Assembly: GCF_007747995.1 (NCBI RefSeq)
Contig: NZ_CP036276.1
Coordinates: 4,889,001 to 4,953,000 of the forward strand
Direction: 5' to 3'
DNA: 64,000 bases
Source of the DNA: Symmachiella dynata
GTDB taxonomy: Bacteria; Planctomycetota; Planctomycetia; Planctomycetales; Planctomycetaceae
Of the stretch, positions 45,280-48,304 are shown in pieces. Positions within the stretch are counted from its first letter, which is position 1. The number at the start of each line of letters is the position of its first letter. The translations under genes were made by a program, and so were the position numbers. The notes under the pieces were generated by a model. The model made no database searches. It worked only from the letters and a program-made list of their open reading frames with translations, and had not been told where the DNA came from.

Positions 45280-45730
45280 CGAGCTGATGTCCGGTCGAAC
45301 CTGCGAACTTCAGGAAATCTGGGACATTACCCACACTTTCTACCTTGCGGATACGGCACAATGATCCGATTGCGCAAAGCAGACTTAGGGGAAATGCTTA
45401 AATCCCCTATCGCTTGACTAGAGAAGTTCAAGTCAACTCAAGGGCGACCGTCGTTCATCCGATTGACAATCTAAGAGATCTACTGTTTAGGGGATTACCC
45501 GAATCAGAAGACCGAGATTGTAAAGCCATCGAAATCCCAACGGCGCAATCGCTGCGGAATCATGAGGCAATCATTCCTCATTTCTCTGGAATCCAACGCA
45601 AAGTAGATTCTAATCCGCCACATAGGTTGCGTTGAAAACGGAAACGAAGTTCTTCCCCCATTCTCAACCACCGAGGGCCCGGTGGCCGAGACTTATCGCC
45701 AACAATTCGCTTTTTCTAAATGGATCTGCC
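45280..45730. other. Spacer upstream of the globin-MCP gene
   Basis: About 450 bases without a convincing gene. TAGGGGA-N10-TCCCCTA (45386-45409) is an inverted repeat, and TTAGGGGA appears again at about 45488, suggesting a regulator site or chance purine-rich copies. Confidence 0.45.
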
Positions 45731-48304
45731 GTGGCTCTTAACGCACCAGCCCTGAAAAATTCATTCCAGGCGGTCGCGCCACGTGCCGACTATTTAGCGG
45801 ACCGTTTTTACAGCCAATTGTTTCTGGATTACCCCGAGCAGATCGTTCGCTTTAGCGGAACCGATTTTGCCGACCAGCAGCATAAGCTCATCGGGGCACT
45901 CTCGGCGATCATTCGCCAACTCGACGATGAGACCGCATTGGTCGAATTCGTAACCCGGTTGGGCCAGCGGCACGCCTCCTATGATTTGTCTGAACATGAC
46001 TATTCGGCTGTCTCTGAGACGCTGATCAAAGTGTTGGCCGAGGTGTTGGGTTCTGAATTTTGGAACAACGAATACGAAGACGCATGGCGTGAGGCATTGG
46101 CAACAATCTCTCAATTGATGCAAGAAGGCGCTCGCACGCAAGATGCAAAGCAAGTAGCAGTGGCGACAATGGTTACGGAGTCGACGACAATCGACCTCAA
46201 TTCCAACGGCGCCTCGACTGCTGAGAACTACACACCCTATTCCGATGAAGCAAATTCTCCGGCACCCCTGCCCGGAACCCCGGCGGTAACATCCGAATCC
46301 ACCCCCCCCGGACCGGCACGGGCCGCGGGTCAACATACTGGAGAAAGAAAAACAATGATCAGCACGGCACAAACAGACGGACGCATGGCGACAGATTCTC
46401 AAGGCGACGCGAGCCAAGACCAGCAACAGTTCTTAGAACTGGCTGCTAAGGTCGATGCCATCAGCAAATCGCAAGCGGTGATTGAATTTGAGTTGGACGG
46501 TACGATCATCACGGCCAACGACAATTTCTTGAACACCCTCGGATATTCATTGAACGAAATTCAAGGCCAGCACCACAGAATGTTCGTCGAGGACGCCTAT
46601 GGTAAAAGCAATGAATATCAGCAATTCTGGGGCAAGTTGAACCGTGGCGAATATGTTGCCGACACGTTTAAACGCCTTGGTAAAGGGGGCACCGTTATTT
46701 GGATCCAGGCCTCGTACAATCCGATTCTGGATCAGAACGGCAAGCCGTACAAGGTTGTCAAATTTGCCGTGGATGTCACCGAGCAAATTGAAATGGCCCG
46801 GATGAAATCCATGGTTGAGGAAATGCCAACCAACGTGATTATGGCAAACTCGGATCTTGAGATCACGTATATGAATCCGGCGTCAGTGAAAAAACTGTCG
46901 GAGTTGCAAGAATTCCTGCCTGTCAAAGTCAACGACATCATTGGTCAATCAGTCGATATCTTCCACAAAAATCCCTCCCATCAACGGGGGATTTTAAACA
47001 ACCCAGACAATCTGCCCTACCGAGCCAGCATCAGCGTTGGCCCCGAGACGCTGGACTTGCTGGTGAGCGCCGTTCGGGACGTCAACGGTGATTATATTGG
47101 ACCGATGGTGACCTGGGAGGTCATCACAGAAAAGCTGCGGTTGGAACAAGAAGCAACGCGTGTCCAAAACATGATGGACAGCATTCCGATCAACGTCGCG
47201 CTGGCCAATCGCGATTATGAATTGGTGTACATCAATCCGGCGTCGATGAAAACGCTCAAGTCTGTCGAAAAGCTGCTGCCCATGCCGGTGGAGCAGTTGA
47301 TGGGACAGAAAATCGACATCTTCCACAAAGTGCCTGAACACCAGCGTCGAATCGTGGATGACCCCAGCAATCTTCCTCACCGGGCCAAAATCAAACTTGG
47401 CGAGGAAACATTGGATCTGTTGGTCTCCGCGATCTACGACAAGGACAACCAATACATCGGACCGATGATCACCTGGTCAATCATCACGGCCCAGGAAAAC
47501 ATGGGGGCCAATGTCTCCGAAGTGGTCAAAGTCGTTTCCGCATCAGCATCGGAGCTGCAAGATGGTGCCAAGAACATGGCGGCCACTTCCGAGCAAACAG
47601 CCCGGCAATCGCAAGTTGTTGCGGCTGCCAGCGAAGAAGCAACACGCAATGTGGAAACGGTCTCTTCTGCCGCCGAGCAATTGACGGCCTCGATCAGTGA
47701 AATTTCACGCCACGTGCAAGATGCTTCAAAGATCTCCCATCAGGCCGTACAAGAAGCGGCCTCGGCCAATACGACGGTCCAGGAACTGGGCGAATCCAGT
47801 ACCGAGATCGGCAAGGTGATCAAGGTCATCACGTCCATCGCCCAGCAGACAAACCTCTTGGCTCTCAACGCGACCATCGAAGCCGCACGGGCTGGCGAGG
47901 CGGGCAAAGGCTTTGCTGTCGTCGCTAACGAAGTGAAAGAACTGGCACGACAAACCGCAAAGGCCACCGAAGAGATCAGCCAAAAGATCGAAGCAATCCA
48001 AGGCTCCACAAACGTAGCCGTGAATGCCATCGGGACCATTGGCGAGATCATCGGCCAGATCAACGAGATCTCAACGACAATCGCCGGAGCGGTCGAGGAA
48101 CAGACCGCTGCCACCAACGAAATTTCCCGGAATGTTTCAGAAGCGGCCCGCGGTACTGCCGAGGTGACGCAAAACATTGCCGGAGTTTCACAAGCCGCCG
48201 ATGAGTCCGGTAAGGCTTCCGGCGACATGCTGGCCGCCGCTGATGGACTGGCTGCCGAAGCGGATCGCTTGCAACAAATCGTCGAAGAATTCCTCGCCGA
48301 TTAA
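45731..48304 (+). CDS. Soluble globin-coupled methyl-accepting chemotaxis protein with PAS domains
   Basis: 857 residues from GTG 45731; the first 33 codons of the longer frame (TTG 45632) do not look like the family. Domain order: (1) globin, about 5-130, of the flavohaemoglobin type, with Tyr27 at B10, Gln49/50 at E7 and the proximal His81 in [17 protein letters not shown]; (2) a Ser/Pro-rich linker; (3) a PAS domain (about 240-350); (4) two copies of a second PAS-like unit, each containing the NPAS-K-L and DIFHK motifs; (5) an MCP signalling domain with the hairpin-tip [20 protein letters not shown]. No membrane segment is seen, so it is cytoplasmic. It probably senses O2 or NO. No che genes are nearby. 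Confidence 0.92.

Follow-up and report, generated by a model that had tools for sequence, protein, structure and literature searches.

A Soluble Chemoreceptor of Symmachiella dynata That Joins an F-Family Globin to Predicted Flavin- and Haem-Binding PAS Domains

Introduction

Receptors for aerotaxis have been divided into separate classes, those that sense with a globin and those that sense with haem-binding PAS domains (PMC13401364, available text). Fusions of a globin to a methyl-accepting chemotaxis protein (MCP) signaling domain have been placed among the globin-coupled sensors, which have globins of the S family (PMC1457004 and PMC3287990, excerpts); in HemAT and its relatives, soluble receptors with a C-terminal MCP output, the S-type globin (PF11563) is linked directly to the signaling domain. 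The Aer2 receptors of Pseudomonas aeruginosa, Vibrio cholerae, and Vibrio vulnificus are likewise soluble MCPs, with one to three haem PAS domains recognizable by their His and I-beta Trp motifs; all three PAS domains of V. vulnificus Aer2 bind haem, and PAS3 relays the signal (PMC13401364, available text). A C-terminal pentapeptide is present in 96 of 130 Aer2-like receptors (PMC7184735). Seven proteins of the Corallococcus Cc_4972 type, including representatives from the planctomycete Rubinisphaera brasiliensis and three Gammaproteobacteria, unite PAS, Bac_globin (PF01152), and MCPsignal domains within one soluble protein, and the portion of the paper available to us discusses neither Aer2-type haem PAS domains nor an internal start (PMC6194562). 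HGbRL of Methylacidiphilum is a putative sensor with an N-terminal globin that has Tyr at B10 and Gln at E7, and its output is a Roadblock/LC7 domain (PMC4476040, in part).

The receptor described here is encoded in a 64,000-nucleotide stretch of the S. dynata genome (NZ_CP036276.1, positions 4,889,001 to 4,953,000; hereafter the window) and would combine globin and haem-PAS sensing in one protein. In contrast to the HemAT group, its globin is F-type and is separated from the MCP domain by a flexible linker and three PAS domains; relative to Aer2, it adds the F-type globin and an FAD-type PAS domain, and it has neither a HAMP match nor the CheR pentapeptide. Its output is an MCP domain, unlike that of HGbRL, and it may be set apart from the Cc_4972 type by the published assignment of the latter's globin to PF01152, the truncated family, the window globin being PF00042. 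Among the matches listed from the open-licence PMC literature, as far as their available text extends, neither a chemoreceptor that pairs an F-type globin with Aer2-type PAS domains nor an internal start in the gene of such a receptor is described. We favor, with a probability of about 0.7, a reading in which this protein works in the cytoplasm as an O2/redox chemoreceptor and, with no other MCP found in the genome, feeds CheA, CheW, CheB, and CheR in a flagellin-encoding bacterium. As the only chemoreceptor found, it may allow the behavioral input of the organism to be read from one protein.

Results and Discussion

A Soluble Receptor in One Open Frame

The gene occupies positions 45731..48304 of the window (+ strand) and encodes, in a single open frame with a GTG start, an 857-residue protein with the domain order globin–PAS1–PAS2–PAS3–MCP. 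The frame is still open upstream to 45626, with a TTG at 45632; the start was nevertheless placed at 45731 because two congeners have a start codon at the matching position (TTG in G001, ATG in G002). An N-terminal match to PF00042, a C-terminal MCP signaling domain (47507..48301, +; PF00015, E = 5.9e-33, residues 661–821), and the lack of any visible membrane helix (the highest 19-residue Kyte–Doolittle mean is 1.03) bear out the initial annotation of this locus, which had proposed a soluble chemoreceptor with an N-terminal globin, three PAS units, and an MCP domain. No HAMP match was found between the PAS and MCP domains of the window protein; HAMP is present in the related fusions of G121, G701, G754, and G770. 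The C-terminus (...EEFLAD) lacks the pentapeptide x-[HFYW]-x2-[HFYW].

PAS Domains of the Aer2 and Aer Types

PAS2 (46802..47158, +) and PAS3 (47159..47506, +), the latter adjoining the MCP domain, are duplicates (57 of 115 positions identical), whereas PAS1 (46430..46801, +) is unlike both (20/112 and 23/98) and is not a copy, such that the duplication of PAS units proposed earlier holds for the last two domains and not for the first. Both duplicates match the Aer2 haem PAS domains known from V. cholerae and P. aeruginosa (6ceq at 1.9e-22 for PAS2 and 1.6e-14 for PAS3; also 3vol and 4hi4), and the NCBIfam Aer2 model NF041847 gives 110.9 bits on PAS2 and 83.6 bits on PAS3, the whole receptor scoring 284 against that model's cut-off of 1200. 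Counted by hand along 4hi4, the DIFHK His corresponds to Aer2 H234, and the Trp 50 residues past it presumably aligns with Aer2 W283, which we take to be the I-beta Trp of that motif pair. H234 is the haem ligand of Aer2 (PMC13401364, available text), and the haem-ligand role of the PAS His is also given in the available text of PMC10468136. PAS2 and PAS3 each carry the E-eta haem His together with the I-beta Trp (His412, the predicted haem ligand, with Trp462; His532 with Trp582), and on these motifs they are classed as Aer2-type haem PAS domains and predicted haem binders.

PAS1 finds its best PDB matches in the FAD PAS domains of MmoS (3ewk) and Aer (8dik, 31cj). In Aer, the F-alpha Trp and the secondary His occupy the positions of Trp300 and His282 in PAS1; these residues have been reported as FAD determinants in PAS domains (PMC10468136, available text), and PAS1 is predicted to be an Aer/MmoS-like FAD PAS domain. 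The structural model of PAS1–3 was used for fold class only, given its middling quality (pLDDT 74.7, pTM 0.41). The predicted haem and FAD character of these domains had been missed by the initial annotation.

The Globin and Its Relatives

The globin domain (residues 1–137; 45731..46141, +) matches PF00042 at 53.5 bits (E = 4.3e-14, residues 26–128). Alignment to Escherichia coli Hmp, and for the first residue also to relatives, identifies Tyr27 as B10 (45809..45811, +), Gln49 as E7 (45875..45877, +), and His81 as F8, the predicted proximal haem ligand (45971..45973, +); all three had been named correctly from the outset. A PF00042 match with Tyr B10, Gln E7, and His F8 is how we recognized the F family, and by profile the domain is assigned to that family of flavohaemoglobins and single-domain globins. 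The FAD/NAD reductase domain that forms the C-terminus of flavohaemoglobins has no Pfam match in the 857 residues. The best PDB relatives of the domain are 3s1i, 3ubc, and 3wfw; among solved structures, Hell's Gate globin I and the HGbRL globin come closest, followed by neuroglobin and Hmp. For the AlphaFold model of the domain (pLDDT 95.7), the closest fit is to Hell's Gate globin I (Z 20.3 over 130 residues, rmsd 1.5); in the Foldseek ranking that globin comes second, behind a neuroglobin. Neither a HemAT nor a protoglobin chain occurs among the best 50 rows of the fold comparisons, which is not proof of a difference.

A standard globin-coupled sensor of the HemAT type, with the globin as a direct O2 sensor for the MCP domain, would share the N-terminal globin, the solubility, and the C-terminal MCP domain of this receptor, and two relatives from the genus Gimesia (G126 and G105) do pass the Protoglobin (PF11563) cut-off at 29 bits. 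The window globin, however, scores 14.6 bits with PF11563, below the cut-off of 25 and far below its PF00042 score; it has Gln at E7, and three PAS domains plus a linker of about 95 residues lie between it and the MCP domain. Profile scores and residues led us to reject this reading, to which we assign only a very small chance.

The initial annotation had placed the globin in the flavohaemoglobin group, which is right for the family, but its scores bring the window globin closer to the single-domain F globins than to the flavohaemoglobins. Indeed, in 392 genomes of the phylum the fused-globin profile retrieves short frames (mostly 138–178 residues) at 1e-25 to 1e-43 in many genomes, weaker short frames down to 1e-7, and flavohaemoglobin-length frames at about 5e-13 to 8e-19. 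A joint tree of S and F globins, for which L052 and L103 were removed and 16 of 20 S loci were used (six of these then being lost through stops within the cut stretch), has long branches and splits the S rows instead of uniting them in one group. In an F-only tree of 76 rows, from which all S rows, the long-branch loci L056, L105, L116, and L047, and 13 near-copies were left out, the flavohaemoglobins are separate (100/100), the planctomycete fused globins form one group with G121 at modest support (97/72), and the Pseudomonadota fused globins fall among other single-domain globins (93/72). In approximately unbiased (AU) tests, a clade of fused globins and flavohaemoglobins is not rejected (p = 0.42), and a single clade of planctomycete and Pseudomonadota fused globins is rejected at p = 0.005, a value that is optimistic because the groups were named after the trees had been seen. 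Because that single clade is rejected, F-type globins were probably joined to haem-PAS chemoreceptors at least twice, and the apparently separate fusion in Pseudomonadota suggests that the pairing of two haem types is useful. The globin sequence is under purifying selection (dN 0.068 and dS 0.41 between G000, the window's genome, and G001; dN/dS about 0.17 in the window's genus).

NO dioxygenases belong to the F family, and flavohaemoglobins are among the fold matches of the domain; both points are in keeping with a globin that is mainly an NO sensor in a receptor mediating NO avoidance. We consider this improbable: Aer2-type PAS domains are O2 sensors in the available text of PMC13401364, the genome holds a separate 417-residue flavohaemoglobin-like frame, and nothing specific to NO was seen. 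The earlier suggestion that NO or O2 detection is combined with a second signal from the PAS domains is thus retained in its PAS half, that signal being most likely O2 and redox because PAS2 and PAS3 are of the Aer2 haem type and PAS1 is FAD-like, while its NO half finds no specific support.

Distribution of the Fusion and Conservation of Ligand Residues

A search for the full fusion in other genomes had been proposed at the outset. Among 170 family genomes, some of them incomplete, at least 27 contain it, and two more copies are cut by contig ends. Fourteen of the 27 come from one genus, that of Gimesia sp. SAT87; Gimesia has been cultured. Genome G121, from another family of the same phylum, encodes a globin, two Aer2 PAS domains, HAMP, and MCP with an EWEEF end, and at least 3 of 398 Pseudomonadota genomes encode a globin, two or three Aer2 PAS domains, HAMP, and MCP with an EWEEF or EWKEF end. 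The Pseudomonadota count is a lower bound because flavohaemoglobin-length frames were left unopened: the globin search, with at most 10 candidates scored per genome, gave a match in 129 of the 398 genomes, and the nine loci opened were picked mostly for odd frame length. A scan of genome contigs with the single globin returned no match, and one with A2 returned eight loci. A 496-residue frame of G882, with a globin at residues 336–465, Phe at B10, and no MCP domain in frame, was left out of the count.

Among 28 complete family fused globins (the 27 and that of G033), Tyr B10 is present in all, Gln E7 in 27 (His in G025), and His F8 in 26, Leu replacing it in G018 and G025. The initial annotation had made its assignment depend on homologs keeping the proximal His, which nearly all do; its loss in these two means that haem in the globin is not universal. 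G018 and G025, with one MCP each, seem to cope without globin haem. In all 31 fusions, the last PAS domain before HAMP or MCP has kept both its His and its Trp, a pairing of globin and haem PAS that has no fair control in that globin-less MCPs were sampled unevenly. More N-terminal Aer2-like PAS domains often lack the His, as in most rows from the Gimesia genus, and an FAD-type PAS domain occurs in 17 of the 27 family fusions. Judged by these predicted ligands, the haem PAS domain adjoining the output is the constant part of the architecture, and the globin haem is sometimes lost.

Two family MCP genes have degenerate N-termini that are barely globin-like and resemble decayed globins. That of G034 (L051, 4395-7994, +) has one haem PAS domain with His and Trp, and in that of G015 (L227, 2572-4701, -) no haem PAS domain was found.

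Chemotaxis Genes

The genome containing the window, a single contig of 7.77 Mb, has one MCP by PF00015, two flagellin matches, cheA, cheW, and cheB together elsewhere, and cheR alone. In 25 of the 27 fusion-bearing family genomes, the number of MCPs is one in 7, two in 15, and five or six in 3; for G121 and the three Pseudomonadota it ranges from 13 to 18. A cheW-like frame lies directly upstream of the receptor gene on the same strand in 24 of the 27 family fusions, as well as in G121 and the three Pseudomonadota fusions, with cheA ahead of it in 23 of the 27; cheB and cheR both follow downstream within the fetched stretch in 20. Only in the window's genus (G000, G001, and G002) was no che gene found near the receptor. 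The receptor of the relatives sits between cheW and cheB, and the gene appears to have moved in the window's genus. Because it lies outside the che cluster there, its coupling to CheA is something we infer. The cheA-cheW-cheB run of the window's genome (L038, 8172-12387, -) has no receptor between cheW and cheB.

A Proposed Mode of Action

In our favored reading as an O2/redox chemoreceptor, what the sequence itself shows is the set of domains and ligand residues, one MCP match, and genes for flagellin and Che proteins; binding of haem, FAD, and gas is predicted by analogy. We hypothesize that CheA activity is set by the two Aer2-type PAS domains, each carrying haem b and binding O2, with PAS3 as the output step; by analogy with V. 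vulnificus Aer2, PAS3 would gate the MCP domain and PAS2 would tune it. PAS1 would bind FAD and add a redox input, and the F-type globin would bind haem and O2, perhaps also NO, each by analogy with related domains. Not being joined directly to the signaling helices, the globin would exert its influence through the long, flexible linker as a tether. We therefore read the PAS domains as the core sensor and the globin as a modulator.

Alternatively, the globin may not be a sensor at all and could instead serve as a structural or dimerizing cap or as a passive O2 or NO buffer, with the PAS domains sensing everything. The replacement of F8 His by Leu in two of 28 globins and the degenerate N-termini in G015 and G034 hint at a globin that in some members is ornamental or structural, and they agree with this alternative, as do the retention of the last haem PAS domain in all 31 fusions, the long, divergent linker, and the precedent of RsbR, a haem-free globin in a signaling protein (PMC4476040, in part). 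We nevertheless hold it to be rather unlikely, given that B10, E7, and F8 are all kept in 26 of the 28 family globins, that the globin evolves under constraint in the window's genus, and that the same globin family was apparently fused separately to Aer2-like receptors in Pseudomonadota. A modulatory globin remains our preferred reading.

A Putative Internal Start in the Linker

The linker (residues 138–232; 46142..46426, +), rich in Ser, Thr, Pro, Ala, and Glu, is divergent, with 27% identity between G000 and G002 as against 61% for the globin. It contains an in-frame ATG (Met209; 46355..46357, +), the putative start of a globin-less isoform, preceded by a Shine–Dalgarno-like (SD) GGAG (46340..46343, +). 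Of 27 family genes, 25 have an in-frame linker ATG whose SD duplex reaches -6.3 kcal/mol or lower, the exceptions being G874 (-4.7) and G941 (-3.0). Counting one gene per lineage, such an ATG is found in 10 of 12 lineages, which share ancestry and so are not independent; the same threshold is reached at 6.2% of 2478 other linker positions and at 15 of 205 other in-frame ATGs. This corresponds to a binomial p of 3e-8 with two tries allowed per linker and, once the number of Met residues per linker is corrected for, a Fisher p of 4e-8, values to be read in light of the fact that the ATG in each linker (from one to three candidates) and the threshold were chosen after the energies had been seen. 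With the peptide fixed and the codons resampled, the signal is weak (Fisher p = 0.014 over the 12 lineages; p = 0.46 for the window gene alone). By eye, linker peptide and codon phase vary between lineages while the SD remains, and residue 2 of the putative short form is Ser, Thr, or Pro in 10 of 12. The SD at the globin start is often weaker (-3.1 in the window gene; -3.6 for the GTG of several genes from the Gimesia genus), with strong examples in G002 (-6.3) and G022 (-6.5). In all three Pseudomonadota fusions an ATG lies in the linker close to the junction, its SD being middling (-4.0 to -6.3).

We put the odds that this start also yields a globin-less receptor at about even. A serious rival is that the ATG and its SD are a relic of the start of an ancestral globin-less receptor that preceded the fusion, or arose by chance from a Glu-, Lys-, and Gly-rich peptide, and that no short isoform exists. 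The weakness of the signal under synonymous recoding fits this account, and the junction-near ATGs of the Pseudomonadota fusions, with their middling SDs, are as expected of a relic; persistence of the SD across strongly diverged linkers and, as judged by eye, across differing codon phases and peptides speaks against it, as does an occurrence far above the linker background. On balance we consider a relic or chance origin a real possibility, though somewhat under even.

Returning to a functional internal start, we tentatively propose, at slightly short of even odds, that one gene gives both a long form with the F-type globin and a short PAS–MCP form from the conserved ATG; that the sole receptor joins three haem sites and one flavin; that the ratio of the forms tunes the O2 set-point; and that F-type globins were recruited to haem-PAS receptors at least twice. 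Arrays would then mix globin-bearing and globin-less subunits, which, if true, would be a simple means to vary receptor sensitivity. In E. coli, an internal in-frame start likewise lets a single gene yield the long and short forms of CheA. There the product is a kinase, whereas here a chemoreceptor would lose a sensor domain.

Other Globin-Bearing Frames

Several further globin-containing frames were recorded. A 501-residue frame in G189 (L101, 1688-3193, -) combines a Ser/Thr protein kinase domain with an F-type globin at its C-terminus. In G218, a 386-residue frame (L102, 3914-5074, -) carries an F-type globin with ScdA_N and hemerythrin domains and is possibly a haem plus di-iron protein. 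The window's own genome encodes a hybrid histidine kinase frame of 1267 residues (L192, 3092-6895, +; C1:2441591-2445394) with an S-type Protoglobin, PAS domains, receivers, and Hpt, so that, together with the F-type globin of the window, both globin families occur in sensor-like proteins of this genome.
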